Assembly: GCF_937884665.1 (NCBI RefSeq)
Contig: NZ_CAKZYF010000168.1
Coordinates: 1-46,831 of the forward strand
Direction of reading: 5' to 3'
DNA from: an uncultured Allomuricauda sp.
GTDB lineage: Bacteria; Bacteroidota; Bacteroidia; Flavobacteriales; Flavobacteriaceae
DNA: 46,831 nt
Positions within the stretch are counted from its first letter, which is position 1. Each line of letters opens with the position of its first letter. The position numbers and the translations under genes were made by a program. Under the pieces are notes generated by a model that did not search any database, had not been told where the DNA came from, and worked only from the letters and a program-made list of their open reading frames with translations. Shown here in pieces: positions 3,356-33,314 of the stretch.

Positions 3356-6300
3356 TTGAAATTTTCTCTAAAACCAAAGGCTCGGAGTTATTGATTCCGA
3401 TGATATAATGCACGTTATTGCCAATGGTTGCTTTTTCAATAGTTCTTGATGGCCCCGGGATGTTTATTGAGACCTCTTTTTGCCAAACAAACTTGTTGTC
3501 CACAAAACTTAATAAAATACCATGAGATGCATCCATTCTGCCCAATTGTGTGCTGATTTCATAGTTGTTGCCCACTAAAAGTAAATCCAGGGTGCCATTT
3601 TCGTCAAAATCATCCACAAACATATCATTTACTGTTGATATTTGGGCTATGTTGGGCAGAGGCTTTTTTGCAAATCTTAGATTCCCCCTATTTTCAAAAT
3701 AGCAGCTAGCCAGTTCATAAACTTTCTTTTTTTTAGATTCCCTTAAACTCTGGGAACCAAAGAGGTCTTCAAGGGATGCCTGGGCAAAACTTTTGTACGA
3801 AAGGAAGTCTTTGTTCAGAAAGGGCATTTGTTTTACCAACTCATCTTTTGAGGCAAAGGGAGTTTCTTTATCACCGTGGAAATAGGTGACCAAGGATTCT
3901 ATGGAGCCGTTACCATCAAAATCCTTTTTGTACAAAGTCAATGGACGTTGGAGGGAGGCGTTCAATCTACTGTTCAATCCCCAGTTACCGGCAAGAATGT
4001 CCAAATCCCCGTCCCCATCAAAATCTTCAACTAACACGGAGTTCCAAAGGCCATGGGTATTTTCCAGGCCAGATTTTGAGGATAGGCTTAATTGTTTGCC
4101 ATCGTTGAGGAAGATGGATAATGGCATCCAATGTCCTACCACAATTAAATCTTGAAATCCATTGTTGTCCAAGTCTGTCCAAATTACATCCTTAACATTA
4201 CCAATGTTTTGGAATTTTTCAGAGAAGGTAGGGGTGATATCGATAAACTTTCCGGTCCCGTCATATTGAAAGAGATACTGACGGTCCTTAACTCCAAATT
4301 GTCTTGGCTTTTGGTCTGAGGTAATGGTAAGGTCAAAATCCCCATCTTTATCAAAGTCTGAAGCTAAAATCGCTGAAGCATTGAGTTGTACGCCTTGAAA
4401 GGCCATCGAATCCCTCTCAAATGTCCCTTGGCGATTCAAGTATAGTCTGGGCTGAATCTTATCAGAGGAAGTAAATTCGTTGCCCGCGCTAACAATGGCC
4501 AAATCTTGCCATCCATCACCGTCCGCGTCGAAAAAGACATGGGCGACGTCCTCATGGAAAGCCTCTTTTGAAAGAAATTCATCCGGATGCTGATAAAATG
4601 AACCGTTTTCGCTTTGGATAAAAAGTGCAGAGGACTGCGCCTTGGCCCCGGAGATACATATATCTTCCAAACCGTCTTTATTTACATCGGCCACGGAAAT
4701 ATTTGGGCCATTATTGGTATTGGCAAAAGGTATCAACGGGTCAATATTGAATTCCAAGGAGGTCTTTTCTTTATGTACAAAAGGAATCAGGCTGTCCTTT
4801 TTGGTGAAAATAGTGCGGAAAGAAGGATTACGTCTAAAGGCGGAGTCTTTGGCATTTACTGCTTCTAGGACGATGTGTCCCCCAGTGAGGTCTTTAAGGG
4901 TCTGATGGCTTCCAAGGGGCCAAACCACGGTCAATGAATCGATAATAGAATCCTTTCCCAGTCCGAAATGCAAGGTGTTGGGTATTGCGGAGAGATAGCC
5001 GCGGGTGGGATAATTTTCGCGAACTTGAACAGTGCCTTTGGAATATAGGATGACCTTGGCGCCAATACCTTTGGTATTGTTTTTGTCTCCTCGAAGTGTG
5101 ATGGATAGGGCATGGGTTTTACCATCCTGTTTGTTTTCCAAAAGAAAGGCTTCTTTGTCTACATTGTTCACTACCAGATCTAAATCCCCGTCATTGTCCA
5201 GATCGGCATAAATACATCCGTGACTGAACGAATTTTCTCGCCGTAACCAGGAGTCGGTCGTATCGCTAAAAGTGAGGTCTCCGTTGTTTTTAAAGAAATA
5301 ATTCGGTACTTCTTTTTCAGGGAGCTCTTCAATGAACGCCATTTCCTTTTGGGACATACCGGCATCTATTGCTTTTTGGATTTTCTCATTGGCAATAAAG
5401 CTTATAAAATCCATATCATTTGTCGCTCCTTTAATTCCATTGGAGACAAAGAGGTCTGTATGCCCATCATTGTCAAAATCAGCCAGCAAGGCACCCCAGG
5501 ACCATTCTGTGGCAGCTACGCCGCTCAGATGGGCCATTTCACTGAAAAACTCCCCAAATCGGTTCAGATATAGGTTGTTCTGCATGTATTGGGGGGCAAA
5601 TCCATTTTTAAGATATTGCTCATATACAGGGTAAGGGTACTCCAGCCCCGATGTTTTATAAGTTTCCAAGTTTTCTGGAAGCATGTCCAGGGAAAGGATA
5701 TCCATCCACCCATCGTTGTTAATATCGGCTATTGCATTTCCCATGGAAAAATGGGAAGTGTGTCCCATTTTTTGTACATCTGTGGAAATGATTTCCTTAA
5801 AGGTGCCGTCTTTCTGGTTGATATAGAAATAATCGTTTTCAAAGAAATCGTTGCCTACATAAATATCGGGATACCGATCATTGTTTACATCGCTAATTCC
5901 AATTCCCAATCCGTAACCGATAGAACCTTGAAAAATACCCGATCCTTCTGAAGCATCGATGAATTTACCCATATCATTTCGATATAAACGATCTCCGGAC
6001 ATTGAATCCACCAGTTTTCTTTTACTTCCTTTGCCATAGGAACGATTTGGATTGGTTGAATGGTTCAGCAAATACATATCCAGATCACCATCCAAATCAT
6101 AATCAAAAAAAGCGGCTTGGGTGGCAAATCCGGAAAAGTCGAGATTGTACGCATGGGCTTCTTCTTTAAAGCTTGGAATCCCGTTTTCGTCCAGCCCTTG
6201 ATTTATAAATAAGAGGTTGTTTCCCTTTATGTCTTTGTAGCGGCCCACTTTGCAAACATAAATATCCAACCATCCGTCATTATTGATGTCCACATGGGTA

Positions 6301-6647
6301 ACACCGGTCGTCCAACCTTCGGAATTCCGAATACCCGAAACCTTTGTGATTTCCTCAAATTTAAAATTGCCCTTGTTCAAGTAGAGCCTGTCGGATTCTT
6401 GGTTGGAGGTAAAATAGAGGTCTACCAAGCCATCGTTGTTAAAATCTCCCGCAGCCACACCTGCACCATTGTAGAAATACAAATAGGTCAAAATATTAAG
6501 GTCTGGTGTATTGGTAAGTTCGTTGGTAAAGAAAATTCCCGTTTCCGAAGCCTTTCGTTTGAGAAAAAGCTTATCCGTTTCTTGTTTTGGATGGCATCCC
6601 GTCAAACAAATTCCCAGTACGCAAAGAAAACACCAGAATCTTCCCAT
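3336..6647 (-). CDS. VCBS/FG-GAP repeat lipoprotein with central ASPIC/UnbV domain (1,103 aa)
   Basis: Paralogue of the genes at 98 and 16620. The signal peptide carries a lipobox (CLTGC, Cys18). The mature protein has seven Asp-rich calcium-loop motifs (DFNNDGLVD, DINNDGWLD, DYDLDGDLD, DVNNDRYPD, DINNDGWMD, DFDNDGHTD, DLDNDGDLD). An ASPIC/UnbV domain lies at about 512-595 (NYPTRGY, LHFGLG, DSLTVVWP). Seven further motifs follow, ending in DFDENGTLD. It is the first gene of a minus-strand operon; its last 20 bases overlap the next gene. It is divergent from the sodium symporter at 6835, with 187 bases between the starts. It is probably outer-membrane anchored, and its function is unknown. Confidence 0.9.
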   Translation of the reverse strand: MGRFWCFLCVLGICLTGCHPKQETDKLFLKRKASETGIFFTNELTNTPDLNILTYLYFYNGAGVAAGDFNNDGLVDLYFTSNQESDRLYLNKGNFKFEEITKVSGIRNSEGWTTGVTHVDINNDGWLDIYVCKVGRYKDIKGNNLLFINQGLDENGIPSFKEEAHAYNLDFSGFATQAAFFDYDLDGDLDMYLLNHSTNPNRSYGKGSKRKLVDSMSGDRLYRNDMGKFIDASEGSGIFQGSIGYGLGIGISDVNNDRYPDIYVGNDFFENDYFYINQKDGTFKEIISTDVQKMGHTSHFSMGNAIADINNDGWMDILSLDMLPENLETYKTSGLEYPYPVYEQYLKNGFAPQYMQNNLYLNRFGEFFSEMAHLSGVAATEWSWGALLADFDNDGHTDLFVSNGIKGATNDMDFISFIANEKIQKAIDAGMSQKEMAFIEELPEKEVPNYFFKNNGDLTFSDTTDSWLRRENSFSHGCIYADLDNDGDLDLVVNNVDKEAFLLENKQDGKTHALSITLRGDKNNTKGIGAKVILYSKGTVQVRENYPTRGYLSAIPNTLHFGLGKDSIIDSLTVVWPLGSHQTLKDLTGGHIVLEAVNAKDSAFRRNPSFRTIFTKKDSLIPFVHKEKTSLEFNIDPLIPFANTNNGPNISVADVNKDGLEDICISGAKAQSSALFIQSENGSFYQHPDEFLSKEAFHEDVAHVFFDADGDGWQDLAIVSAGNEFTSSDKIQPRLYLNRQGTFERDSMAFQGVQLNASAILASDFDKDGDFDLTITSDQKPRQFGVKDRQYLFQYDGTGKFIDITPTFSEKFQNIGNVKDVIWTDLDNNGFQDLIVVGHWMPLSIFLNDGKQLSLSSKSGLENTHGLWNSVLVEDFDGDGDLDILAGNWGLNSRLNASLQRPLTLYKKDFDGNGSIESLVTYFHGDKETPFASKDELVKQMPFLNKDFLSYKSFAQASLEDLFGSQSLRESKKKKVYELASCYFENRGNLRFAKKPLPNIAQISTVNDMFVDDFDENGTLDLLLVGNNYEISTQLGRMDASHGILLSFVDNKFVWQKEVSINIPGPSRTIEKATIGNNVHYIIGINNSEPLVLEKISNEQVLD

Positions 6648-6834: not shown

Positions 6835-8487
6835 ATGTTGGGCATCCTATCCTTTTTGGGCTTTACCACCTTAGTGGGAGTCATTGCATATCTAGCAACA
6901 CGTTCTACCGATGAAAAATCTTCTGACGGTTATTTTTTGGGAGGTAGAAGCCTAACGGCGGGTGTTATCGCCGGGTCTTTGCTACTCACCAATTTATCTA
7001 CGGAACAGATTGTTGGATTGAACGGAAGTGCCTACAAAGATGGCCTATCGGTAATGGCTTGGGAGACTTTGGCCGCTATAGCGATGGTAATTGCTGCAAT
7101 TTTTTTATTGCCCAGATATCTCAAAGGGGGATTGACCACAGTCCCCCAGTTTTTAGCGGATAGATTTGACGTATCCACCAAGACCATTACCTCAGGATTA
7201 TTCTTGACAGGATATGTCGTGGTGTTATTGCCCGTAATTCTGTATTCGGGTTCCGTGGCGATTAGCGGCATGTTCAAAGTGCCTGAACTTTTGAATGTTT
7301 CGGATTCCACTGCTTTGGTAATCTGTATTTGGGGTATTGGAATAATTGGTTCGATTTATGCCGTTTTTGGAGGATTAAAAGCGGTCGCTGTTTCGGATAG
7401 TATCAACGCCATTGGATTGATTATCGGTGGAGTGCTCATCCCTGTTTTTGGATTGATCGCCATTGGAAATGGCAATGCTTTGGAAGGTCTGGATACCTTG
7501 ATGTCGGCGAATCCCGAACGCTTTGATTCTACTGGTGAGCATGGCCAAGAAGTGCCGTTTTCGACCATTTTTACCGGAATGATGTTGGTGCAGCTTTTTT
7601 ACTGGGGCACCAATCAGCAAATCATCCAGAGGGCTTTAGGGGCGAAAAATTTGGCTGAAGGTCAAAAAGGATTGCTTTTGGCTTCATTTCTTAAAATTTT
7701 AGGTCCTGTTATACTAGTTTTACCGGGAATGATTGCCTATCACTACTTCGATGGTAGCTTGGCCTCCAGTGATCTAGCATATCCTGCATTGGTTGGGGAG
7801 GTGTTGCCCGATTATTTAGTGGGTTTTTTTGCAGCTGTGTTGTTCGGTGCCATCTTAAGTTCTTTTAACAGTGTACTAAATAGTTCGGTGACTTTGTTTG
7901 GTATTGACATTTACAAGCAGCATATCAACAAGGACGCGTCAGAGGTTACCGTGGTGAAATATGGAAAGGTCTTTGGAGTTTGCCTCGCCTTGGCCGCGAT
8001 GTTCATTGCGCCCTTAATTGCCAACGCGGGTAGTTTGTTCAACTATTTACAGGAAATCAACGGAATTTATAATATTCCCATACTGACGATAATCGTTGTG
8101 GGCTACCTCACAAAGCGGGTGCCTGCCATTGCAGCAAAAATCGCCATTTTTTTGGGATCGGGTCTTTACATTTTAAGCCAGTTTATCATTGGTCCTGGTT
8201 TAGTCGGCAAGGCTGTGGAAGAAGCAAAGGCTTCTGGAATTACGGATGAAGCTACTCTCCGTCTTGTTGAAGCAGATGCCTATCCCCATTTTCTACATGT
8301 GATGGCCATTTTGTTTTTGTTGAATGCTGGAATCATGTTGTTGATTGGAAAATTCTATCCCAGAAAGGAGCCTTTTGTTCAACAATACACCAAACAAGTG
8401 GAAATTACTCCCTTTAAATATGTGAAACAGGCAGGAACCCTAATCTGTTTAATTGTTATTGGAATCTATGTTTACTTTTCGAAGTAG
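6835..8487 (+). CDS. Sodium:solute symporter (SSS/SLC5 family), sugar-type, 550 aa
   Basis: An integral membrane protein with many hydrophobic helices from residue 1 to the C-terminus (about 14 expected for the family). The N-terminal region SSDGYFLGGRSLTAGVIAGS followed by LLLTNLSTEQIVGLNG is the SSS signature region. The overall sequence resembles the YidK/vSGLT sugar-transporting branch more than proline or pantothenate symporters; this placement is by eye. It would import a solute with Na+. It ends three bases before the convergent cytochrome c gene at 8491. It is separate from the second symporter at 10196, which is a different branch. The substrate cannot be read from the sequence; the neighbourhood suggests a sugar or sulfosugar. 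Confidence 0.88.
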   Translation: MLGILSFLGFTTLVGVIAYLATRSTDEKSSDGYFLGGRSLTAGVIAGSLLLTNLSTEQIVGLNGSAYKDGLSVMAWETLAAIAMVIAAIFLLPRYLKGGLTTVPQFLADRFDVSTKTITSGLFLTGYVVVLLPVILYSGSVAISGMFKVPELLNVSDSTALVICIWGIGIIGSIYAVFGGLKAVAVSDSINAIGLIIGGVLIPVFGLIAIGNGNALEGLDTLMSANPERFDSTGEHGQEVPFSTIFTGMMLVQLFYWGTNQQIIQRALGAKNLAEGQKGLLLASFLKILGPVILVLPGMIAYHYFDGSLASSDLAYPALVGEVLPDYLVGFFAAVLFGAILSSFNSVLNSSVTLFGIDIYKQHINKDASEVTVVKYGKVFGVCLALAAMFIAPLIANAGSLFNYLQEINGIYNIPILTIIVVGYLTKRVPAIAAKIAIFLGSGLYILSQFIIGPGLVGKAVEEAKASGITDEATLRLVEADAYPHFLHVMAILFLLNAGIMLLIGKFYPRKEPFVQQYTKQVEITPFKYVKQAGTLICLIVIGIYVYFSK

Positions 8488-8490
8488 GAA

Positions 8491-8964
8491 CTAATTTTCC
8501 TCTAAGGCATACCATTCAATATCGGTCAAAATATCGCGGCGTCCCTTTTTATCCGGGGCATAGTTGGCGGCTAGGTAGTTTACGATGATTTCCTCATTAT
8601 TGCCAAGGTCCCATAGGTTTTGGGTTTCTTGCATCCAACGTATTGTAGCTACCCAACCTTCTTTTGTCATTCGATTTTGGGTGACCAGTTTTGCGGAGTG
8701 GCAATTGGTACAATTCTGAATGACTTCGGTCAAACCGTCCGCATCCACAAAACCTGTTGCCACATGGATGCCATTTTCAATCAAGTCTTCCGGTTCTTCG
8801 GGAATTTCTACCAAAGCGATTTCTTCCGGTTGCTTTTTAAGAAGGGTCGGATTTGTAATCACATACAGCAAAGAGAAAATGCAGATAAAAATCACACAGA
8901 ACCCTACTATAATCTTTCGATATAGTATTTCAACCTGATTTTTAAAACGCTTTTCAAAAGACAT
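8491..8964 (-). CDS. Membrane-anchored monohaem cytochrome c, SorB-like electron acceptor (157 aa)
   Basis: One N-terminal membrane segment (IIVGFCVIFICIFSLLYVIT) is followed by a periplasmic domain with a single CTNCH haem-binding motif. The tail (MTKEGWVATIRWMQ, then NYLAANYAP) is the pattern seen in sulfite dehydrogenase cytochrome subunits. It follows the molybdenum enzyme gene directly: the ATG at 8964 starts one base after that stop. The open frame can be extended to a TTG at 8973 that overlaps the upstream gene, but the ATG is the better start. It should accept electrons from the SorA-like enzyme and pass them to the respiratory chain. The axial Met is uncertain; two candidates lie in the MTKEGW and WMQ segments. 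Confidence 0.85.
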   Translation of the reverse strand: MSFEKRFKNQVEILYRKIIVGFCVIFICIFSLLYVITNPTLLKKQPEEIALVEIPEEPEDLIENGIHVATGFVDADGLTEVIQNCTNCHSAKLVTQNRMTKEGWVATIRWMQETQNLWDLGNNEEIIVNYLAANYAPDKKGRRDILTDIEWYALEEN

Positions 8965-8965
8965 A

Positions 8966-10189
8966 TTAAGCAACTTTAATAGCTATTCGATGACAGGCAT
9001 TGTTCAAATATCCTTTAGGATTCCATCCAGGTAAGAGCATGGGTTGGCTCACGCCATTGGCATCGGTGGCCTTGGCCCAAACCTCATAATAGCCCTTTCT
9101 CGGAAAGTGGTCTATGGCCGCCGTAAAATGCTGCCAAGCCAACCGATTAACTGGTTTTTGTAAAGAACACGGATACCAAGTAGAACCAAAATCTATGGAA
9201 TACTCTAGCCTACTTACCTCAAGTTCTCCTGCCCAAGCGTGTCCCCTGATTTTCAGTGCCTGTCCTTCCTTAATGAGCGCGCCCGTTTTAGGATATGTTA
9301 TCAAGGATTTCACAGGCATGGATTCAATGATGCACATATCATCATCAGCAACTTTTTCACCTGGAGCGACAGGTTCACAGGGTACGCGATATGAGGTGCC
9401 CTTCATTTTGGCACCATCATGAACTTTATTTCTCACACTAATTCGGTCGATCCATTTCCCTGAGGCAGAAGCAGGCCATCCACCGGCGATCAATCGTAAC
9501 GGATATCCATGAACCAATGGAATATCCTTTCCGTTCATTTGAAAAGCAAGAAGGGTTTCATCTTGTATCGCTTTTGCTAAGGGTACTCCTCTGGAAATGG
9601 GTTCTTTCTCAGGATTTCGGCTTAAATGGATATCAGCGGCATGGTAACCGATATACACGGCATTTGATCGGTAACCAACATCTTGTAGCACGTCTCTTAA
9701 ACGAACTCCGGTCCAATTGGCACAAGAAACTGCACCCACGGTCCATTGATTTCCTTTGGCAGGTGGATTGAACTCACTTCTGCCATTACCGCCGCATTCC
9801 AGCGTAAGTTGGTACGTATACGTTTTGAATCGCGTTTTTAGTTCGGCCAGGCTATAGGTTTTCTGGTTTTGTACGGATTCTCCATCAATGGTCAACTTCC
9901 AGTTTTTTATATCGATATTTTCTGGGATCAAACCATTATTCCGTATGAACATGTATTTATTGGGTGTCACTTTATCATCCAATAAATGGGCTTTGGACTC
10001 AATATTCCATGGTTTCGTATTGAGAATCGACATATCCGAATCCTTTTTGAAACGTTCAAAAGGATCGGGGTCTTGGAGTGCTAAAGGGGTGTATCCCGAT
10101 GGCATTTTATGTGCAAAGACGATGTCCGTACCCAATACTGTGGCCATTGCGCTCAATGAGGTTTTGGATATAAACCGTCGTCTGTCCAT
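8966..10189 (-). CDS. SorA-like sulfite dehydrogenase, Tat-exported molybdopterin enzyme (407 aa)
   Basis: The N-terminus DRRRFISK followed by a mild hydrophobic stretch ending VFA is a Tat signal, so the folded cofactor enzyme is sent to the periplasm. The sulfite-oxidase core follows: FIRNNGLIPE at ~82-90, the molybdenum-ligating Cys132 in LECGGNGR, and the cofactor-binding stretch GYPLRLIAGGWPASASGKW. A C-terminal Mo-co dimerisation domain comes after (SRLEYSIDFGSTW, GYYEVWAKATDANG). Sulfite oxidases commonly have RNH where this protein has RNN. The expected reaction is sulfite + water to sulfate with electrons to cytochrome c. It sits between the symporter at 10196 (6-base gap) and the SorB-like cytochrome, in one transcription unit. 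A YedY-like reductase is less likely because of the dimerisation domain and the cytochrome partner. Confidence 0.88.
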   Translation of the reverse strand: MDRRRFISKTSLSAMATVLGTDIVFAHKMPSGYTPLALQDPDPFERFKKDSDMSILNTKPWNIESKAHLLDDKVTPNKYMFIRNNGLIPENIDIKNWKLTIDGESVQNQKTYSLAELKTRFKTYTYQLTLECGGNGRSEFNPPAKGNQWTVGAVSCANWTGVRLRDVLQDVGYRSNAVYIGYHAADIHLSRNPEKEPISRGVPLAKAIQDETLLAFQMNGKDIPLVHGYPLRLIAGGWPASASGKWIDRISVRNKVHDGAKMKGTSYRVPCEPVAPGEKVADDDMCIIESMPVKSLITYPKTGALIKEGQALKIRGHAWAGELEVSRLEYSIDFGSTWYPCSLQKPVNRLAWQHFTAAIDHFPRKGYYEVWAKATDANGVSQPMLLPGWNPKGYLNNACHRIAIKVA

Positions 10190-10195
10190 TTACTT

Positions 10196-11740
10196 TTAAT
10201 GAAATATAATATGAAGGGCAATTAATGATAGAAGCATTCCAATACCGGCTTTTGCAAGTGTGGGAGAAGCAGGTTCTGCCTTGAGTTTGTCTTTGATGAA
10301 TCCTGTTCTGGACCCTAACCAAACAATCGTAAATCCTATCAATATGACCCACATGGCCCTGACAAAATAATTCATATTGGGGAAAAACTCCAAGAAGAAA
10401 AACTGCAAGGGCACTGTGGCCAGAAATCCAAAAAGGGCTACACGATGTTTGGGCAAGGCCAAGAAAGCCGCAGCGGAAATCAGTACCACAATCCCACAAT
10501 TGATAAAATATCTGAGTTGGTTCAAGGTATGGGTAAACGCAGCTCCAGGGTCTTGGAACTTAAGATATAATAGAACGATTCCTATAATTACCCCTGAAAT
10601 AAATGATAATAAGATTGCTCTTTTTCCAGAACGAACAACCTGTTGGTCGGATGCATTTCTGTTCACGTAGACTTTATAAATGTCAATTGACCAAAGGGTC
10701 GCCAAAGAATTAAAGGTAGAATCCACTGTACTCATCAGTGAAGCAAAAAGGGCACATAAAATTAACCCTTTTACCCCAATGGGAAGATATGTGTTCACCA
10801 AGTAGGGGAAAGCAGCATCTGGTTCTGGTAGGCCATTATCACCCAATATGCCCACGAGCGCGATTCCTGGTAAAATGATAATAGCGGCCATAAAGTACTT
10901 CATCAGTCCGCCGACCATAAGACCAATTTGGACATCTTTTAGACTTTTTGCTGCCAACGACCGTTGTACCACTGACTGGTTTGCACACCAATAGTTGATG
11001 TTCAATAAAAAAGCACCGAAAATATGTATCCAGGGCAAGGTATCGTGATCTGCAGGTAGGTGCAAATGCATTAAGTGACCTGTTTTTTCGTATAGTTGGG
11101 ACCACCCTCCCAAATGATATATGGCGATGAACATAACACCCACTCCTCCTGTCAATAGAATAGCAAATTGGATGACATCTGTTCGAACTACCGCCGCCAA
11201 TCCTCCAAAGTAGGTATAGGTCGCGGAAAACAATCCGAGAAACACGATAAGAATCGCGATTCTAATGAGTCGGTCAGAATGGATAAATGATAAATAGTCC
11301 CCAAAAACCAAATCAACGGAATAGGCACCCCAGAAAAGAGCTGCCCCCAGCGTGATTGTGGAGAAAAGCAAAATGTTGGCTCCTGAATAAAGCAGCGCTA
11401 CCGTGCTGCCCAATCTTGTTTTTATAAATTGGGTTATGGTAATGATTTTTTCCCGCAAATACATAGGGACAAAAATGAAAGCGGCCAAGAGGAGCCCTTG
11501 AATAGCGTTTATTTCAAAGTTTGCCTGGGCCAGTCCATAAAGATAGGCCGAGCCCATAAAGCCCAGAAACTGGTACCCCTGTACATTAGTAGCAATGGTC
11601 GAGAATGCTATAGAAGGCCATCTTAGATTTCTACCGCTCAAAAAATATTCTTCTGTAGTAGCTTCTTTGGACGTTCTTCCAGTTATTGCGGTAACAAAAA
11701 CAATGATAAAATAAGCACTTACAATCAGTAAATCAATCAT
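10196..11740 (-). CDS. Sodium:solute symporter (SSS family), 514 aa, in the desulfonation operon
   Basis: A multi-helix membrane protein with the SSS signature region TTEEYFLSGRNLRWPSIAFS near residue 30, and a later PAVVRTDVIQFA-like segment (GLAAVVRTDVIQFAILLTGG). It is only distantly similar to the symporter at 6835. It lies on the same strand between the flavin monooxygenase gene (148 bases upstream) and the sulfite dehydrogenase gene (6 bases downstream), so it most likely imports the substrate of this pathway by Na+ coupling. In the Agrobacterium sulfoquinovose monooxygenase pathway the importer is an ABC system, so this would be a different solution. The gap 11741-11889 holds no operator copy that matches the one at 14005, so it is probably co-transcribed from upstream. 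Confidence 0.88.
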   Translation of the reverse strand: MIDLLIVSAYFIIVFVTAITGRTSKEATTEEYFLSGRNLRWPSIAFSTIATNVQGYQFLGFMGSAYLYGLAQANFEINAIQGLLLAAFIFVPMYLREKIITITQFIKTRLGSTVALLYSGANILLFSTITLGAALFWGAYSVDLVFGDYLSFIHSDRLIRIAILIVFLGLFSATYTYFGGLAAVVRTDVIQFAILLTGGVGVMFIAIYHLGGWSQLYEKTGHLMHLHLPADHDTLPWIHIFGAFLLNINYWCANQSVVQRSLAAKSLKDVQIGLMVGGLMKYFMAAIIILPGIALVGILGDNGLPEPDAAFPYLVNTYLPIGVKGLILCALFASLMSTVDSTFNSLATLWSIDIYKVYVNRNASDQQVVRSGKRAILLSFISGVIIGIVLLYLKFQDPGAAFTHTLNQLRYFINCGIVVLISAAAFLALPKHRVALFGFLATVPLQFFFLEFFPNMNYFVRAMWVILIGFTIVWLGSRTGFIKDKLKAEPASPTLAKAGIGMLLSLIALHIIFH

Positions 11741-11889
11741 ATACTAGAGGGTTAAATAAATAAATTCCATAGCACATGAATCCAAACGTTGCAGCGGTTT
11801 AATCATAGTTTAGGTCAAGGTCGGTTATGGAATATTTGTTGAACCATCCAATATACCATTTTGTTTTCAAAAAAAGAGCCATAATGCTG

Positions 11890-13050
11890 CTATATTCGCA
11901 CTCCCGCCGCTAGTGGGGTCAAGGGTTCCTCAGCGTGCACTTTCCCTTGAGCAATGGGCATGGAGAATGTTTTTAGTTTGGGTAGGACCAGTTTTGCGAA
12001 TCGCTCACATTCTTCTTTATGGGGATAACCGGAGAAAATGAAAGCCCGGATACCCATATCCATATATCGGTTGAGTTTCTCTACAATTTGGTCAGGATTT
12101 CCCACTAAAGCCGCACCACAACCGGAACGCCCCTTTCCAATACCTGTCCACATGTGGGGTTCCACATAGCCGTCATCTTTTGAAATCTCCCGCATTTGTG
12201 CTTGTCTGCTCACACCGTACGATTTAGCATCCAAAGCTCTTTCCCTCATTTCTATTCCCTGCTCAACCCCTAACTTGGATATGATGCTATCTGCATATTC
12301 CCTTGCTTCTTCTTCGGTTTCGCGGACCACTACGTGCACGCGAAGACCAAAATCAACCTTTCTTCCGTAAGATGCAGCTTTGGCACTCATGTTTTCCATG
12401 AGTTTTTTAAGATTTTCCTCGGTCTCGGGCCACATCAAGTATACATCACAATGTTCGGCACAAAGGTCAACAGCGGCTGGGGAATATCCTCCAAAATACA
12501 GCAGCGGTCCCCCATTTTGATAAGACTTCGCTGGTAACGAAGAAACCTTAAGGTTGTAAAATTTACCTTGATAATCGATTTCATCTTGCGTCCATCCTTG
12601 TTTTAGAATTTCGATGACTTCGCGGGATCTTTGATACCTATCTTCGGAAGACATCTTTTCTTCCCCAGGAAGGGGTGATGAAATAATATTTATGGTGAAT
12701 CTGCCTTTCAAAATGTGATCGATGGTAGAAAGGGTCCTGCCCAACATGGCTGGATGGATTTCGCCGCACCGAATAGCGGCCAACATATTGATTTGTTTTG
12801 TCATTGGGGCCATTGCAGACACAAAAGGAAGGGTATCTTGACCTACTTGATAGGAAGAGGGGCACAATATATTTCTGAAACCGTTCCTATCGGCGGTCAA
12901 TAAAATTTGGGAAGTGTTTTCAAAAGTACTTTTGTAGTCCATACTTCTTTCCCCAAGATACCTATCGTCACCATTACAAATTGGGGCAAACCAAGAAACT
13001 TCAGCTCCCTCAAGGTGTGGCGATCGAATCGTTATTTTTGAATTTTCCAT
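11890..13050 (-). CDS. SsuD/SmoC-like reduced-flavin-dependent sulfonate monooxygenase (LLM family, 386 aa)
   Basis: This luciferase-like TIM-barrel enzyme matches alkanesulfonate monooxygenase SsuD motif by motif: LLYFGGYSPAA, CDVYLMW, SYGRKVDFGLRVHVVVRET, MWTGIGKGRSGCGAALVG and FIFSGYPHKEE. Catalytic SsuD residues Arg226, His228, Arg297 and Tyr331 correspond to Arg237, His239, Arg308 and Tyr342 here, all with the same offset of 11. SsuD His11 (PTHGD) and Cys54 (GRSCED) are not conserved (PICNGD and SSYQVGQD here), pointing to another substrate. The expected reaction is sulfonate + FMNH2 + O2 giving aldehyde + sulfite + FMN. It starts 13 bases after the aldo-keto reductase. With reductases and sulfite genes on both sides, a sulfoquinovose monooxygenase role is the best guess; another sulfonate is possible. 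Confidence 0.88.
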   Translation of the reverse strand: MENSKITIRSPHLEGAEVSWFAPICNGDDRYLGERSMDYKSTFENTSQILLTADRNGFRNILCPSSYQVGQDTLPFVSAMAPMTKQINMLAAIRCGEIHPAMLGRTLSTIDHILKGRFTINIISSPLPGEEKMSSEDRYQRSREVIEILKQGWTQDEIDYQGKFYNLKVSSLPAKSYQNGGPLLYFGGYSPAAVDLCAEHCDVYLMWPETEENLKKLMENMSAKAASYGRKVDFGLRVHVVVRETEEEAREYADSIISKLGVEQGIEMRERALDAKSYGVSRQAQMREISKDDGYVEPHMWTGIGKGRSGCGAALVGNPDQIVEKLNRYMDMGIRAFIFSGYPHKEECERFAKLVLPKLKTFSMPIAQGKVHAEEPLTPLAAGVRI

Positions 13051-13063
13051 TTCTTCTTGTTTA

Positions 13064-13954
13064 TTAATCGATTTCTCTACCTAGCGCTGCTTCCCAAAGC
13101 ATGTACCATTCTTCATGGGTCAGGTCAATACTCAGCGCTTGGTGTGCTGTGTTGATTCGTTCTAATTTTGAAGTACCTAGAACGGGTACAATTCCAGATG
13201 GGTGTTTTCTTAGCCATGCATACAATAATTGGTCATGGGCTGCATTGTATTTCTTTCCTAGTGAATCCAAAACTTTTTTAATGGCTTCAATCTCTGGCGT
13301 GCTGGTTTTTCCAAACAAACTACCGCCACCCAAGGGCGACCATGCGGTTGGAATTACTTTTAATTTTTGACATTGATCCAACGTGCCATCCTCAAAGGCA
13401 TTTCTGTGCAGAATGGAAATTTCCACTTGATTTGTGACCAGTGGCGTCAACGAGTACAAGAGGTCGAACTGCGAGGGTGTGAAATTGGATACACCGAAGC
13501 CCAACACTTTTCCTTCTTTTTTAAGGGTGGCAAAAGCTTCTGCAATCTCATAGGGATTGAATAAATAGTCCGGTCTATGTAACAAGAGGACATCAATGTA
13601 ATCTGTTTTCAGATTGCTTAATGATAAATCTACGGATTCCAAAATGTGTTTGGCCGAAAGGTCGTACGACTTAATCTTATGGTTGGGCCGATTTTCTGAA
13701 ATCAACTTTATGCCGCATTTTGTGGTTATACGCATCTTGTCCCGGAGGTCCTTCCTGGATTTGAGCACATTTCCAAAATCTTCTTCGGTGGTATAGTGTC
13801 CGTAAATGTCGGCATGGTCAAAATCAACTAGACCAAGTTCCAGACATCCTTCTATAAATTTTTCGTATTCTGTGGTAGATAATTGACTCCCCCAAGTACC
13901 AAGTCGCATGGTGCCTATGATAAAGGGAGAAATAGTGTCTTTGGTTAGGGCCAT
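13064..13954 (-). CDS. Aldo-keto reductase, YdhF/SmoB-like (296 aa)
   Basis: An NADPH-dependent (beta/alpha)8 reductase with the full catalytic set: Asp and Tyr in FDHADIYGHY, Lys in ITTKCG and His in LLLHRPD. The GVSNFTPSQFDLL and LGTSKLERI segments match E. coli YdhF-type reductases. The open frame reaches a TTG at 13984, but the ATG at 13954 gives the family's usual length and start. It is the first gene of the minus-strand operon, with the palindromic operator at 14005-14022 upstream. In the sulfo-SMO pathway the matching enzyme (SmoB) reduces 6-oxo-glucose to glucose after C-S cleavage; the same job is inferred here from the neighbouring monooxygenase. Activity on another aldehyde cannot be excluded. 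Confidence 0.87.
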   Translation of the reverse strand: MALTKDTISPFIIGTMRLGTWGSQLSTTEYEKFIEGCLELGLVDFDHADIYGHYTTEEDFGNVLKSRKDLRDKMRITTKCGIKLISENRPNHKIKSYDLSAKHILESVDLSLSNLKTDYIDVLLLHRPDYLFNPYEIAEAFATLKKEGKVLGFGVSNFTPSQFDLLYSLTPLVTNQVEISILHRNAFEDGTLDQCQKLKVIPTAWSPLGGGSLFGKTSTPEIEAIKKVLDSLGKKYNAAHDQLLYAWLRKHPSGIVPVLGTSKLERINTAHQALSIDLTHEEWYMLWEAALGREID

Positions 13955-14004
13955 AGGGATTATATAATTCTCATTCTGAGTCAAAATTAACCAAATAAAC
14001 CAAA

Positions 14005-14022
14005 AATGTAAACGTTTACATT
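14005..14022. promoter_or_regulatory. LacI-type operator, perfect 18-bp palindrome (copy 1)
   Basis: AATGTAAACGTTTACATT is a perfect palindrome with the central CG typical of LacI-family operators. It sits between the divergent aldo-keto reductase (ATG at 13954) and FMN reductase (ATG at 14074) and could control both. The same 18 bases recur inside 16584-16613. The 8-mer CAAATAAA, which reads TTTATTTG on the minus strand and resembles a Bacteroidota -7 box, lies just below both copies (13992-13999 and 16583-16590). The LacI gene at 14613 is the obvious binder. Confidence 0.8.
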
Positions 14023-14073
14023 ATAAAATTTTATAATATTGCGCATTAATTTTATTCAAAACTAAGAAAGCAC

Positions 14074-14616
14074 ATGATAACCGTAATTTCGGGATCAAAT
14101 CGAAAGAACAATAAAACCATTCACTTTGCCAAGTATGTGTTTGAAGAGCTCCAAAAAGTTGTGCAGGAGGAGGTAAAGTTTCTGGATATTTCGGAATTTG
14201 CCGGCAATGTGGTGAATGAGACCATGTACAAGGATTCTGAACAGCCCAAAGTGGTGCAACAGATTCAAGACGATTATTTTATCCCCGCCCAAAAATTCTG
14301 GTTTTTTGTTCCAGAGTACAATGGGAGTTATCCTGGTATCGTTAAGTTGTTGATAGATTCCATGTCGGTGCGGGAGTACAAAAGCAGTTTTGCGGATAAA
14401 AAAGCCTGTATAACCGGTATCGCTTCAGGGAGAGCGGGCAACTTAAGGGGAATGGACCATTTGGCTGAAGTTTTAAACCATTTGGGAATCCATGTACATC
14501 CCAATAAAAATCCAATTTCTTCGATTTTTAAAATGTTGAATTCAGAAGATAATTCGGTCAATACGGAAGCCATAGAGACCCTTCAAAAACAAATCCAGCA
14601 GTTTTTGGCTTACTAG
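14074..14616 (+). CDS. NADPH-dependent FMN reductase (flavodoxin fold, 180 aa)
   Basis: The N-terminus VISGSNRKNNKT is the FMN-phosphate loop of the flavodoxin-like reductase family. PEYNGSYPGIVKLLIDSM and SGRAGNLRGMDHL are further family motifs. It would reduce FMN with NAD(P)H and supply FMNH2. It is divergent from the aldo-keto reductase/monooxygenase operon and shares the operator at 14005-14022, so it is the natural flavin donor for the SsuD-like monooxygenase, as SsuE is for SsuD. Similar reductases occur elsewhere in flavobacteria without such neighbours, so the link rests on position and operator. Its stop codon overlaps the convergent LacI gene by four bases (shared CTAG). Confidence 0.88.
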   Translation: MITVISGSNRKNNKTIHFAKYVFEELQKVVQEEVKFLDISEFAGNVVNETMYKDSEQPKVVQQIQDDYFIPAQKFWFFVPEYNGSYPGIVKLLIDSMSVREYKSSFADKKACITGIASGRAGNLRGMDHLAEVLNHLGIHVHPNKNPISSIFKMLNSEDNSVNTEAIETLQKQIQQFLAY

Positions 14617-15620
14617 GTTGAAACAACTTTTGAAGACGCCCTTTGAACCAGCTTGGGAGAGAGAACTTTTGTGGTTGGTTTAACCTCCTCTTTCAGTTTT
14701 TTTAGCAAGATGGTCGCGGCCAATTCACCCATCATTACATTTTCCTGGTCTATCGAACTTATTTGAGGTTGTATTAAAGTACTATAGTTCGCGTTCCCGA
14801 AACCGATTAATTTAACCTGTTCCGGAACCTTTAGGTTTCGGTTTTTCAATTGTTGAAGTACTTGGATGGCCATTTCATCCCCATAGACAAATATGCCATC
14901 AATATTGGGATTGGCTTTGAATATTGCATCCAATCGTTGTATGTCTTGATTACCGGTCGTCTTGAGTTCGGCCACCATATGAGAAATTCCTGAAGTACCG
15001 TGTTTTTCTGCGGCAGCCAGGAAACCATCTTTTCTATCCCTAAAAATTCCGACTTGTTGATTACCTGCAACGTGCAGCAGTTGTGTACAGTTATTTTTGA
15101 TAAGGTGTTCTGTGGCGATATACCCGCCCAAATGGTCGTCAAGAACCACTGAATCCACTTCTTTTAATTTCGGAGGTCTATCAAAAAAAACAATGGGAAT
15201 CTTAGCTTCTATAATTTTTTGAATATTGGTGTAGTCCTCGGTTTCTTTGGATATGGACATAAGTACTCCTCCCACATTAAGTTCCAAAAAGGAATTCAGC
15301 GCCGTGTTTTCTTTATCCTGTTGTTCGTGGGTCTGGGAAATAATTATATGAAATCCTGAATCACTGACGATCCGTTCAATACCGTTGATAATACCGCTAA
15401 AGAAAAGATTGTTCACCTCGGGAACGATGACACCGATAATCTTGCTTTTCCCACTTCGGAGGGCCGCCGCCATTACGTTTGGTCTGTAGTCCAGATCTCG
15501 TGCAACTTTTAAAACCCGTTCCCTCGTTTTTTCAGAAACTAAGGGACTCTGGTTAAAAACACGGGATACAGTGGCCAGGGATACCCCGGTTATTTTTGCA
15601 ATTTCCTTGATGCCCGCCAT
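14613..15620 (-). CDS. LacI-family transcriptional regulator of the desulfonation module (335 aa)
   Basis: An N-terminal helix-turn-helix (IKEIAKITGVSLATVSRVFN, then a hinge with YRPNVMAAALRSGKS) is followed by a periplasmic-binding-like sensor domain. The frame stays open upstream to 15794, but that part reads inside the exporter gene. The ATG at 15620 puts the HTH at the N-terminus where it belongs and lies 11 bases after the exporter stop. LacI proteins usually sense sugars or sugar phosphates, which favours a sulfosugar substrate. It is likely to bind the palindromes at 14005 and 16584, the second being in front of its own operon (autoregulation). Co-transcribed with the exporter. Confidence 0.9.
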   Translation of the reverse strand: MAGIKEIAKITGVSLATVSRVFNQSPLVSEKTRERVLKVARDLDYRPNVMAAALRSGKSKIIGVIVPEVNNLFFSGIINGIERIVSDSGFHIIISQTHEQQDKENTALNSFLELNVGGVLMSISKETEDYTNIQKIIEAKIPIVFFDRPPKLKEVDSVVLDDHLGGYIATEHLIKNNCTQLLHVAGNQQVGIFRDRKDGFLAAAEKHGTSGISHMVAELKTTGNQDIQRLDAIFKANPNIDGIFVYGDEMAIQVLQQLKNRNLKVPEQVKLIGFGNANYSTLIQPQISSIDQENVMMGELAATILLKKLKEEVKPTTKVLSPKLVQRASSKVVST

Positions 15621-15631
15621 TTGATCCCTAT

Positions 15632-16564
15632 TTATAAGTAGTTGAGAACATAAAATAAAGAAATTACTCCCAGAAGAATCCAGGTAAAGATGCCTACAAT
15701 CAAAATATTGAAACCCAATTTTTTTAGTTGGGCCAAGTTGATTTGCATCCCGATCAAAAAGAGGGTGAAAATCAAGGCTTTCCTCGCAATCCAAACGATA
15801 TGGGCACTTATTGGTTCTGCTGAGGTTACATAGGAATTAATTAGCATGGCACCAATAAATCCAAAGATAAACCAAGGGAAAGTAAATTTTTCCTTAGAAT
15901 TTGAACCGAATGAAATAATCAATACCAAGGGTATAATCCACAGTGTACGAACCAACTTTGTGGTCGTGGCCACATTCAAAGCCTCATTGCCGTAAACTTC
16001 TGCAGCACCTACCACCGAGCTGGTATCATGAATTGCAATGGCACTCCAGGTACCGAATTGGGCTTGGTCCAGACCAAAGAACTGCCCGATATAAGGAAAA
16101 ACAAATAACGCGATGGCATTGAGCAAAAAAACAATGGCCAAGGAAATAGAGGTTTGCGATGAATCCGCCTTTAAACTGGGACTGACCGCGGCTATGGCGC
16201 TACCTCCGCAAATGGCAGTGCCAGAAGCGACCAGTATGGTAGTAATCCGCTCAGATTTAAGTAGTTTGCCAATACCGAAGGCAATGATAAAAGTACAAAC
16301 AATGGTTATCAGGGTGATAAAAAAACTATTGGAACCAACCTCTATGGCTTGTTGCATGTGGATTCCAAAGCCCAAACCAACAACAGACAATTGCAATAGC
16401 AATTTTTGAAACTTTTTGCGATTTCGCACAAAATCGTCTTGGGCAATTTTGTATATTCCGCTGGCCATGCCTACAGCTAAAGCGAGGGCAGGGGAGATAA
16501 ATCCTAGTAAAGTGCCTATAAGCACAAGAAGACTTAATATGTAAGTGCCCGTCTTTGAAAGCAT
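15632..16564 (-). CDS. YeiH/PSE-family putative sulfite/sulfate exporter (310 aa)
   Basis: A hydrophobic protein with about ten membrane segments. It carries the conserved GTAICGGSAIAAVSP loop and HDTSSVVGAA segment of the YeiH family (UPF0324, putative sulfate exporter). It would move sulfite, or sulfate, out of the cytoplasm. In this setting it would deliver cytosolic sulfite released by the monooxygenase to the periplasmic SorAB-like enzyme. First gene of an exporter-LacI operon; the 30-bp palindrome at 16584-16613 lies 19 bases before its ATG. Export direction and substrate are family-level predictions. Confidence 0.87.
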   Translation of the reverse strand: MLSKTGTYILSLLVLIGTLLGFISPALALAVGMASGIYKIAQDDFVRNRKKFQKLLLQLSVVGLGFGIHMQQAIEVGSNSFFITLITIVCTFIIAFGIGKLLKSERITTILVASGTAICGGSAIAAVSPSLKADSSQTSISLAIVFLLNAIALFVFPYIGQFFGLDQAQFGTWSAIAIHDTSSVVGAAEVYGNEALNVATTTKLVRTLWIIPLVLIISFGSNSKEKFTFPWFIFGFIGAMLINSYVTSAEPISAHIVWIARKALIFTLFLIGMQINLAQLKKLGFNILIVGIFTWILLGVISLFYVLNYL

Positions 16565-16583
16565 TGTTGGGAAACAAAACTAC

Positions 16584-16613
16584 AAATAAAATGTAAACGT
16601 TTACATTTTATTT
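16584..16613. promoter_or_regulatory. LacI-type operator, perfect 30-bp palindrome (copy 2)
   Basis: The core AATGTAAACGTTTACATT (16590-16607) is identical to copy 1 at 14005-14022. Perfect symmetry extends outwards through AAATAA/TTATTT to a total of 30 bases. It lies between the stop of the VCBS gene (16620) and the exporter start (16564), upstream of the exporter-LacI operon. An AT-rich palindrome after a stop codon could also act as a weak terminator. However, the shared core and the LacI gene point to an operator. Confidence 0.82.
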
Positions 16614-16619
16614 TCAAGC

Positions 16620-19600
16620 CTAATTTCCAAGGTATGAAAACACTTTGGGTCTTTGGTTGTTGATACCCACAAAGAGAAACTCCCTTCCTGTTTTATCCGA
16701 GAAGGGCGATAGGTGTTTAATTTCTCCCCGAACGTAAAATCCTGATTCATCGTAAGGGGTCCATTTAAAATTACCATCACCAGAACCGATGAGAACTCCT
16801 CCGTAGCTGGCATCTAATCTGCTGTACTGTGGTTTGAAATCATAATTGTTCCCACCCAAAATCAAATCTAGATTTCCATCGCCATCAATGTCCTTACAAT
16901 TTATATCGCAAACGCAGGAAAACTGTACTTCCTTGGGTAAGGCAATGATATCGAATTGCCCATTACCTTTATTCAGTGCCACAATACTTTTGGTCGTATT
17001 TATTTCCTTGCGTATGGATTGATTTAAGATTGTGGTGTCCATCAGTTCCCCAATACTTTTTGTGGCATAATCAGCAAACTTGAGATTCTCCTTTTTCAAC
17101 GAATTCAATTGTGCTGTAAGTTCTCTTTTAAGTGTCAACGGAACATCCTTGCCTTGGTAGTTTTGGGTAAAGAGTTGTTCAATGGTACCATTGTCATCAA
17201 AATCGTTGACAAACATTTTGATTGGAGATTTGGATGATGCCCTATAACTAAAATTTTCTCCTTGGTTTCCAAGAATAAAATCCATTTTCCCGTCGGCATT
17301 AAGGTCCTCAGCATAAATGGTATTCCACCAACCGGACATGCTATCTAAACTCGTTTTTCTCGGACTGAGCCTCCTTCCGTTATTTTTGAAGATTTTTGGG
17401 GTGCCCCAATCTGTTGTGATTATGAGATCACTTTTTGAATCTGAATCATAATCAGCCCACAGGGCATGGGTCACCATTCCTACATCTTTCAAATAGAAGG
17501 CTTTGCTTTCGGTGACATCCGTGAAGTTACCGTCACCATCATTTTCAAGGAACAAATGTATGGGGTCCACGCCGTAGATACCGGGTACACTTCTGCTTCC
17601 TATAAAAAGATCTTGATCTCCATCTCCGTCAAAATCATGTGGGGCGATTACGGAGACATTGTTTTCCAAACTGGGGATGGTGTTGTCGACCTTGGAGAAT
17701 TTTCCACTGCCATTATTGATATAAATCCGGTTTTTATGTAGCGCCCGTTGGTCTGGAATGTTGCCTCCTGAACCTACAATAAGGTCCAGGTCGCCATCTC
17801 CATCAATGTCGGCAAAAGTAGATGCAGTATCTTCAAAATCCCTATCCACACGAAAGGCATCCGGGGTATACGCCAACGATAAACGTCCGGCATTTTGATG
17901 CTTGAAAAGCTTTGCTGGTTCACCTCTCGATCCCCCCATAAAAATATCGTCATCCCCGTCATTATCAATATCCCCTACTGCTACTGTGGGCCCCTCTTGA
18001 GATATCATTTTCGTGATCAGTCCTTCATAATCGAAATCAATATGTTTGTCCTCTGTATGACGGGGTAACTCTACGACAACTTCGGACAGTAATGTTACAT
18101 TTTGTCCAGTATATGGCTTGTAAGGGGTTTTGGCGTTTTGTTGTCTTAGCTGAAGCAGGGTATTTACTTGAACCTCTTTCAACACTTGCTGCAGCCCATT
18201 GGGCCAAACGACACGTAAGGAATCAAGTTTTTCTGTTTTACCCATTCCCAAGGTCATGACATAGTCTATGGAAGATTGAAACCCTCTTGAGGGAATTAGC
18301 TCTTGGCGCATGGTCCCACCCTTTGAAAACGCTTCAACGATGCTCCCAATCCCCTTGGTATTCGGGTTTTCCCCAATCAATTCAATTTTTAGATAGTTAT
18401 TTTTTAGGGTTTCACTATTGTTCTTATACACAAAAAGTTCTTGGTTAACATTGTTCACCACGAGGTCCAGGTCTCCATCATTATCAAGGTCTCCGTATGC
18501 GGCTCCGTTGGAAAAGGAGGGTGTGTTAAGGCCCCACTCTTTGGAAACATTTGAAAAAGTAAGATCCTTGTTGTTTTTGAACGTGAAATTGGAAACGGGT
18601 ACCGAAGGCATAGCATTAATTACGGCCTCTTTCTGTTCTTTATTTCCGTGAACAGCGGTTTGTTGTCTGGTGACATCCTCGAAAAAGTCAATAAAATCTT
18701 GATTGGTCAAATCGTGATAAATACCATTGCATACGTAGATATCCCGAAATCCGTCATTATCCATATCAAATAACAACGCGCCCCAACTCCAGTCTGTTTT
18801 TGAGATTCCGCTATAGTGGGCTATTTCAGAAAACGAATTGCCCAAGTTAAGTTGTAGGGTGTTCTGCATGAACTGATAGTAATAATCGTTGGACAGTTTG
18901 CGCAGATGGGTATCAAATGTTTCAAAGGTAGTGGTGGTTTTTAAGCGTTCGTCTCCTTCGGGGAGCATGTCCGTTACAAAAATTTCCGATTTACCATCAT
19001 TATTGATATCGGCCATATCAGCCCCCATTGAAAAAAGACTCAAATGGTTGGTCCAATCCTTAATACTTTCTGTGAAGGTTCCATCTTGGTTATTGATGTA
19101 GAGGTAATCATGTTCAAAAAAATCATTGGAAACATAGATGTCGGGATAAAGGTCTTGGTTGATATTACCAACGGTCACTCCCAAGCCAAATCCGATTAGA
19201 CTGCCATAAATATGGGCTTCTTCACTTACATCTTCAAAAATACCATTGTTGTTTCGCAACAATTTATCTCCCCCTCCCTTTATCTCATCGATTACGTTCC
19301 AATCTTCCGCCCTGATATCCCGTTTGTTCTCATATCCGAGACTGGCCACAGGAATAAAACTATTGTTGAGCATATAGACGTCGAGGTCTCCGTCCCGGTC
19401 ATAGTCAAAGAAAGCGGCATGCGTAGTGAAACCGCTATCGGCGAGATTATAGGCTTCGGCGTTTTCCGTAAAGGTTAAATCCCCATTATTGATAAATAGT
19501 TCATTCTTTTGATCGTCACCTTTAATGTTTCCAGCGTTGCAAACATATATGTCCAGTAAATTATCTGCATTGATATCTACAAAGACCACACCGGTGGACC

Positions 19601-19955: not shown

Positions 19956-20059
19956 TTTTTGAAGTTCTGTAAAGGGGAAGCTAAAAATTTTCATCAAAAA
20001 ATCACAAAAGATAGTTTGGATTAACAGATAGGGAGCGGAATCCGGTTTTGCTGAAGAAA

Positions 20060-20084
20060 AAAAGAGGGCAATTTGCCCTCTTTT
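20060..20084 (-). terminator. Rho-independent terminator after susD
   Basis: An 11-bp perfect stem (AAAAGAGGGCA paired with TGCCCTCTTTT) with a 3-base loop lies 24 bases past the susD stop. Read on the minus strand it is followed by a T-rich run. It separates the SusC/SusD transcript from the VCBS gene at 16620-19955. Confidence 0.8.
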
Positions 20085-20107
20085 CTTTGATACACTTAAA
20101 ACTAGTA

Positions 20108-21733: not shown

Positions 21734-21747
21734 TTACATTTTTTTAT

Positions 21748-32563: not shown

Positions 32564-32573
32564 GCGTTGGAAA

Positions 32574-33302: not shown

Positions 33303-33314
33303 GTCTTTTGGGTT

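Follow-up and report, generated by a model that had tools for sequence, protein, structure and literature searches.

Catabolism of sulfoquinovose (SQ) by the oxidative sulfo-SMO pathway is described for Agrobacterium tumefaciens, with gene names SmoA, SmoB and SmoC (PMC13372026; reviewed in PMC9594981 and PMC12890257), and matches to SmoB and SmoC within 10 open reading frames (ORFs) have served as the criterion for its recognition (PMC13372026). The sulfo-ASMO pathway of Novosphingobium relies on SquD and SquF, the latter an aldo-keto reductase (AKR) of PF00248 (PMC9594981). GH188 sulfoquinovosidases are described as near-universal in Roseobacter sulfo-SMO clusters (PMC10755693). The oxidative route has been assigned largely or mainly to the α- and β-Proteobacteria (PMC9594981; 2026 review PMC12890257), and a 2026 survey adds Actinomycetota and Spirochaetota (PMC13372026); figure 7B and the supplementary tables of that survey may include Bacteroidota. 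In the text of PMC12890257 there is no word beginning with 'Bacteroid' or 'Flavobacter', and among the papers listed in literature searches with partial coverage of subscription papers, none on a Bacteroidota cluster of the kind considered here was found by title or abstract start. This report concerns eight genes on a contig of 46,831 nucleotides (NZ_CAKZYF010000168.1; the whole stretch analysed, termed the window) from an uncultured Allomuricauda sp. of the Flavobacteriaceae. As judged from sequence, they very probably form a regulon under LacI control that serves oxidative desulfonation of the sulfo-SMO/ASMO type. Confidence is high for the kind of pathway and moderate for the exact substrate. 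The pathway itself is already known; this is a different variant of it, in a phylum for which no description was found.

The window is the whole of contig C168 in a 4.2-Mb genome of 216 contigs (completeness 96.9%, contamination 4.2%). The first-pass annotation had listed a contiguous set of eight genes, from an AKR to a YeiH-type exporter, and all eight were found as intact ORFs at 8491–16564. Pfam family calls agree for seven of the eight proteins, the SorB-like protein being the exception. The features are as follows.

8491–8973, minus strand: SorB-like membrane-anchored c-type cytochrome (weak family matches; a single haem motif, CTNCH, and a single hydrophobic segment at the N terminus)
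8966–10189, minus strand: SorA-like sulfite dehydrogenase, a periplasmic molybdenum enzyme with a twin-arginine start (MDRRRFIS)
10196–11740, minus strand: SSS-family sodium symporter, proposed SQ importer (family matches; adjoins the monooxygenase in related loci)
11890–13050, minus strand: SmoC-type monooxygenase (luciferase-type) dependent on reduced flavin mononucleotide (FMNH2), proposed SQ monooxygenase (family matches, trees)
13064–13984, minus strand: AKR, proposed 6-oxo-glucose reductase (start TTG 13984 or ATG 13954)
14005–14022: operator AATGTAAACGTTTACATT, in the gap between the AKR and FMN reductase genes
14074–14616, plus strand: flavodoxin-fold NADPH-dependent FMN reductase (PF03358, 75.3 bits)
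14613–15620, minus strand: LacI-family regulator LacI1 (family matches; the listed ORF starts too early, at 15794, and the ATG preceding the LacI domain is at 15620)
15632–16564, minus strand: YeiH-type (PF03601) exporter, proposed to export sulfite (family matches)
16590–16607: a second copy of the same operator, 25 bases ahead of the YeiH-type gene

Two units diverge from 13985–14073: the AKR, monooxygenase, SSS symporter, SorA-like and SorB-like genes run leftwards from it and the FMN reductase gene rightwards. A third unit, of the YeiH-type and LacI1 genes, is also directed leftwards, and its end overlaps that of the FMN reductase gene by 4 bases.

Among solved structures, the monooxygenase is matched best by 7oh2 (490.7 bits) and 7olf (481.7 bits), over nearly the whole chain. 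We take both to be SmoC, the SQ monooxygenase; their table names are generic (alkanesulfonate monooxygenase, methanesulfonate sulfonatase). Next are 7jv3, presumably MsuD, at 237.8 bits, and SsuD (1nqk/1m41) at about 210 bits. The curated SsuD cut-off (TIGR03565) was not reached (278.7 of 518.2). The enzyme is 59% identical to that of Ruegeria sp. AD91A, and on Ruegeria, Rhizobium and Marinovum plasmids the monooxygenases with 57–59% identity are accompanied by genes for a Gfo/Idh/MocA protein, for an AKR and for a flavin reductase (annotated in Marinovum as putative dehydrogenase, putative oxidoreductase and flavoprotein-oxygenase-type protein). These neighbourhoods fit the account of sulfo-SMO clusters with GH188 in PMC10755693.

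Phylogenetic analysis placed the enzyme with the same relatives. In a careful tree of 102 rows, three SsuD/MsuD rows were set apart at 100/100, and the window protein was on the SmoC/SquD side, inside a 10-row clade (100/100). A quick tree of 110 rows likewise separated SsuD/MsuD (100) and placed the window in a 14-row set (99) and in a 6-row set, all AKR-linked (99). The 102-row trees and the position count given below omit eight proteins, two of them from full clusters (L030, L031, L033, L034, L036, L041, L042 and L045; twins L057, L058, L063, L102, L111, L128, L132 and L134), all of which the 110-row tree restores. By its solved relatives and by the trees, then, the monooxygenase is of the SmoC/SquD type, and the comparison with SmoC and SsuD proposed in the first-pass annotation identifies it as a relative of SmoC.

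A perfect 18-bp palindrome, AATGTAAACGTTTACATT, is situated before both halves of the cluster, at 14005–14022 and 16590–16607. With three mismatches allowed, these were still the only two sites in the window, and none of 100 shuffles gave two copies. Its 14-base core was present at both places (the AKR/FMN reductase gap and before the YeiH-type gene) in L029, L057, L058, L059, L060 and L065, and once each in L097 (in the LacI-monooxygenase gap), L067 and L073; it was not found in the remaining 9 of the 18 loci examined. The genome of L097 has a second copy before its YeiH gene. A LacI1 relative at 42% identity or more is encoded in nine distinct loci (the window, L029, L057–L060, L065, L067 and L097), and every one of them carries the core. 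In a genome-wide search of 15 genomes, the core was present in nine and absent from six (G384, G341, G249, G150, G086 and G099), where the LacI cluster was not seen and LacI1 itself was not searched for; G384, of the same genus, has no monooxygenase match. A reversed control pattern gave a single match over all 15 genomes. From this neighbourhood and co-occurrence it is inferred that LacI1 binds the AATGTAAACGTTTACATT sites. Genes that are not co-regulated would have spoken against the original annotation, and the operator shared across the cluster argues that this is not the case.

Conservation of the locus was assessed in 82 loci, namely 80 named loci, which are the best of at least 590 relatives and so lean towards close kin, plus L029 and L032. 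The 80 include 75 from Bacteroidota, three from Chloroflexota and one from Abditibacteriaceae. The full cluster, with the surrounding SusC/D and ASPIC genes, occurs in the window, L029, L057 (the same place as L030) and L058 (the same place as L031). L060 extends from SusC to SorB, with no ASPIC genes in its 14-kb contig; in L059 no SorAB was seen, and L065 ends inside the monooxygenase with no SusC/D seen. The SorA-like gene occupies the same position in L029, L057, L058, L060 and L084. In many Saprospiraceae the set is reduced to AKR, monooxygenase and symporter. Recurrence of the same order in relatives indicates that the arrangement is not due to chance, and the synteny that the first-pass annotation proposed to look for is seen in other Flavobacteriaceae.

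The monooxygenase and symporter are usually paired. An SSS symporter gene is next after the monooxygenase in 58 of the 82 loci, and this particular symporter (>50% identity) follows in 61 of the 73 with enough downstream DNA; an AKR lies within 3 kb in 27 of the 79 with enough upstream DNA. Within the family, the monooxygenase was detected (E ≤ 1e–60) in 22 of 397 genomes, the present one included, and in 18 of 237 genera. The other 21 genomes show an adjoining AKR in four cases, the symporter with no adjoining AKR in 15, and neither in two (G290, and G081, where the contig ends). Strains that carry the pair with no AKR alongside include Aureicoccus marinus SG-18 and Arcticimaribacter forsetii. 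SorA-type matches of at least 71% were present in 8 of the 22 genomes and AKRs of at least 65% in 5, while some AKR of at least 41% was found in all 22.

The remaining genes of the cluster appear to serve flavin supply and the fate of sulfite. The flavin reductase (PF03358), a component that is frequent in sulfo-SMO/ASMO clusters, though not required, gave weak matches to MsuE and SsuE, below both curated cut-offs. The SorA-like protein scored 222.5 against the SorA cut-off of 600 (NF052245), and the YeiH-type protein 121.4 against 232.6 for TIGR00698; since these scores are under the cut-offs, the names denote a type and not an equivalogue. The SorB-like protein was below the curated cut-offs of both Dehyd-heme_bind (20.4 of 25.2) and NCBIfam SorB (26.5 of 93). 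Of the solved structures, sulfite oxidases match the SorA-like protein best (176 bits), and a sulfite:cytochrome c oxidoreductase scores 145. A YeiH-type protein, 23% identical to that of the window, is also found in the cluster of Rhizobium sp. SL42.

These data bear on the question of whether the genes form an ordinary sulfur-scavenging, SsuDE-like system for simple alkanesulfonates. The monooxygenase does belong to the same superfamily as SsuD and MsuD, with the matching stretches FGxRxHVxVRET and SGYPH in the alignment, and the flavodoxin-fold reductase with its faint resemblance to MsuE and SsuE is in keeping with such a system. It is nevertheless highly improbable: the cut-offs for SsuD, MsuE and SsuE were all missed, SsuD/MsuD lie on a separate side of the tree, an AKR and a LacI regulator fall under the same operator, and the presence of genes for both sulfite export and sulfite oxidation suggests that sulfur is disposed of, not assimilated.

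A desulfonation pathway of the sulfo-SMO/ASMO kind is thus the preferred reading, and the following scheme of substrate, reactions and directions of transport is proposed. The SSS symporter would bring SQ into the cytoplasm, and the FMN reductase would supply FMNH2. The SmoC-type monooxygenase would then cleave the C–S bond to give sulfite and 6-oxo-glucose, which the AKR would reduce to glucose. Sulfite would leave the cytoplasm through the YeiH-type carrier and be oxidized to sulfate by the periplasmic SorA- and SorB-like proteins, with electrons passing to the respiratory chain. LacI1, as the presumed operator-binding protein, would repress the genes from the two identical operators of the cluster, while the use of glycerol would be coupled in by another copy at glpD.

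Like sulfo-SMO of A. tumefaciens, the cluster groups a SmoC-type monooxygenase with an AKR and a flavin reductase, and its proposed products are also glucose and sulfite. It differs in its AKR, which is outside the SmoB clade, in its flavodoxin-fold FMN reductase (PF03358), in the SorAB-like oxidation of sulfite, and in that no GH31 or GH188 sulfoquinovosidase was found in the genome, although that test is a weak one. An AKR of the SmoB clade and a GH31 or GH188 sulfoquinovosidase are features of the Agrobacterium/Roseobacter-type smo subtype and do not define the pathway; the window has instead a PF00248 AKR beside the monooxygenase (13064–13984). The Ruegeria, Rhizobium and Marinovum clusters have ABC or TRAP transport and GntR (for Marinovum the annotation says no more than transcriptional regulator), whereas the window has an SSS symporter and LacI. 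With sulfo-ASMO of Novosphingobium (SquD, SquF) it shares LacI, AKR and monooxygenase, the monooxygenase of pLA3 being 45.9% identical to that of the window. The Bacteroidota reading of the first-pass annotation is accordingly supported by the SmoC-related monooxygenase, the conserved order and the shared operator, with SQ as the putative substrate.

A link to glycerol is indicated by the operator. The genome contains exactly three exact copies of the 14-base core, two in the window and one at C55:48618, 34 bases before the ATG of glpD (NCBIfam GlpD 328.5 of 360, type 1 glycerol-3-phosphate oxidase 495 of 840; both below cut-off). The congener G229 has the same site before glpD. On plasmid pLA3 of Novosphingobium pentaromativorans, the monooxygenase, glpD and glpK genes are in a row, beside genes for an annotated α-glucosidase, LacI and an AKR; the plasmid also carries a TonB receptor gene. 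Seven of the 82 loci have a GlpD ORF close to the monooxygenase and in the opposite orientation: L072, L107 and L113 (Saprospirales) and L095, L101, L104 and L108 (Arcticimaribacter-like), with GlpK adjoining it in L107 and L113. By our own estimate of one glpD per 3–4 Mb, about 0.4 would be expected in the 1.34 Mb of the 82 loci; because the loci are related, these neighbours represent a few independent events. L043, which is outside the 82, has a GlpD ORF as well. Sulfoquinovosyl glycerol is delipidated sulfolipid (PMC13372026), and the operator core before glpD points to it as the natural nutrient; it is probably the form met in nature.

A number of observations weigh against SQ as the substrate or against parts of the scheme. 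Sixty positions are fixed in five SmoC-type and two SquD-type rows but not shared by the SsuD rows; 41 of them are retained in the window. Many of the losses are at residues 23–46, so a different sulfosugar is possible. For the same 60 positions, AKR-linked rows (n=25, window included) average 42.6, AKR-less rows (n=61, four of them not Bacteroidota) average 44.2, and Spirosoma/Emticicia rows keep 36–41; these counts do not discriminate between substrates. The branching order within the monooxygenase tree is also not settled. In the careful tree, the window, Saprospiraceae, α-proteobacterial SmoC and the SquD-type rows of Novosphingobium fall within a 69-row set (94/100, drawn open) that excludes many AKR-less rows from marine flavobacteria; the 102-row and 110-row quick trees put the SquD-type rows next to the root. 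A reading of the 102-row quick tree in which the window was bracketed between SquD and SmoC was dropped, as the careful tree places SquD beside SmoC and keeps those AKR-less rows outside the set.

The AKR is a further point of this sort. Its best solved matches are YdhF-type AKRs (228–241 bits), followed by 7bby/7bbz (221 bits), of which 7bby is presumably the AKR SmoB; identity to the Ruegeria SmoB is 41%. In a quick tree of 56 rows, the SmoB clade (4 rows, 99) and the SquF clade (3 rows, 100) were separate from each other, and the window AKR was outside both, among Bacteroidota YdhF-like AKRs. It grouped with the other cluster AKRs (28 in all, 92, drawn open), whose neighbour, joined at 93, is a clade (100) of 18 AKRs from elsewhere in flavobacterial genomes; a 29th cluster AKR, from Chloroflexota, fell weakly with SquF. 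From this placement, the AKR of the Bacteroidota clusters seems to have been recruited separately to the same task, with no orthology to SmoB.

Such an AKR, together with a monooxygenase that differs at 19 of the 60 shared positions, might be expected if the same chemistry acted on a different sulfosugar or a different sugar sulfonate, such as a glycoside of sulfofucose or sulforhamnose. This is considered unlikely, given that the closest solved relatives by far are 7oh2 and 7olf (taken to be SmoC) and that an operator at glpD is in keeping with a glyceryl glycoside, of which sulfoquinovosyl glycerol is one. SQ is also, according to PMC12890257, the abundant sulfosugar.

For SQ catabolism under LacI1, the operator data contain adverse points too. 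With one mismatch allowed, two more core sites appear in the genome (C68, C110), against two for the reversed control; neither site has a neighbour among the reference proteins used. A third core site in G102 precedes a 133-amino-acid ORF, which by our own reading of the sequence, made with no family search, is cupin-like. The glpD operator is known from two genomes of one genus. No close site was found in about 300 bases before glpD in G120, G102 and the genomes of L059, L065, L067 and L097: the best sites had three mismatches in G120, four in G102 and the L059 and L065 genomes, and six in the L097 and L067 genomes, the glpD starts being approximate for L065, L097 and L067. The L060 genome gave no GlpD match at the limit used.

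Finally, there is no glycosidase among the cluster genes (8491–16564). The single GH31 of the genome above cut-off was rejected as a sulfoquinovosidase, as its nearest model is MalA (484.4 of 800) and it scored 192.3 against the YihQ cut-off of 553. The like-named α-glucosidase gene of Novosphingobium EMRT-2, in comparison, passes the YihQ model with 881.6. None of the 22 monooxygenase-bearing genomes has a YihQ-type GH31 above cut-off, but this is a weak test because none of 14 control genomes, E. coli included, passed either. A GH188 candidate from Ruegeria, named by its position, found only a match of 25% over 143 residues. Oligo-1,6-glucosidase-like GH13 genes occur near the monooxygenase in 5 of the 82 loci, two of which have LacI and the operator.

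L065, 6762–8411: oligo-1,6-glucosidase-like GH13, inside or beside the LacI-operator cluster
L067, 6192–7835: oligo-1,6-glucosidase-like GH13, inside or beside the LacI-operator cluster

Since genes of this kind are widespread (present in 17 of the 18 genomes searched), GH13 stays a weak candidate. Either free SQ is used, or a sulfoquinovosidase of another family acts, or the enzyme was missed.

As a single and tentative proposal, the Bacteroidota may hold a large, separately assembled branch of oxidative SQ catabolism, built on the monooxygenase–SSS symporter pair as a new class of sulfosugar importer, and coupled in some lineages to glycerol use by a LacI regulon that includes glpD; SQ would be released for it by a sulfoquinovosidase from a family in which this activity is so far not known. 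If true, this would bring a main aquatic bacterial group into the sulfur cycle, by way of a branch that has an importer and a regulon of its own. The 14-bp operator offers a handle for seeking the regulon in other genomes, perhaps including the missing sulfoquinovosidase.

The genes flanking the cluster were left outside its core. To the right, SusC/SusD and ASPIC genes (16620–24726) might provide the outer-membrane entry of the same pathway, for they adjoin the cluster in the window, L029, L057 and L058, and SusC/SusD do so in L059 and L060. This is doubtful, however. The SusC/LacI2 gap contains no LacI1 operator; it holds a different near-palindrome, CGAAAACGGTTTCG, at 24822–24835, which faces a LacI2-GH65-GH13 locus, is kept in four relatives (L244, L245, L246 and L247) and is probably the operator of that locus. 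The GH65/GH13 pair (26163–30337) was rejected as a sulfoquinovosidase: the GH65 is closest to maltose phosphorylase (726 bits) and the GH13 is present in 142 of the 397 family genomes, so an ordinary maltose-type locus is indicated. To the left, another symporter (6835–8487) was rejected as the SQ importer. Its counterpart in L030 adjoins xylose isomerase and xylulokinase-like genes, and transport of an ordinary sugar is its likelier role.

Lipoprotein-like proteins, each about 1100 amino acids long and mutually 38–40% identical, are encoded at three places, 98–3355, 3336–6647 and 16620–19997; the last, the one scanned with Pfam, has FG-GAP/ASPIC-UnbV domains. After the maltose-type locus, at 30549–34811, are GDPD, HI0933-like, GlpF and GlpK genes, all four of which are kept in L244 and L245 and the first two only in L246 and L247.

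SmoC-like enzymes were also seen in other settings. Those of L054 and L182, on Spirosoma oryzicola plasmids, are 54% and 52% identical to the window enzyme and are accompanied by amino-acid permeases (in L054 also by an amidohydrolase, a cytochrome c and a gene named soxC); they are perhaps for a different, amino-type sulfonate. L053, on the 34-kb plasmid pEMTOL05 of Emticicia oligotrophica, has a SmoC-like gene, an SSS symporter and a GH95 gene together. In L090, L112, L116 and L121, a glycerate kinase gene (identified by Pfam in L121 and by clustering in the others) is directly upstream of an ORF of 441–450 amino acids and the monooxygenase–symporter pair. The like-placed ORF in L048 is a GntP permease. 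Do these neighbours reflect a link to the use of glycerate?

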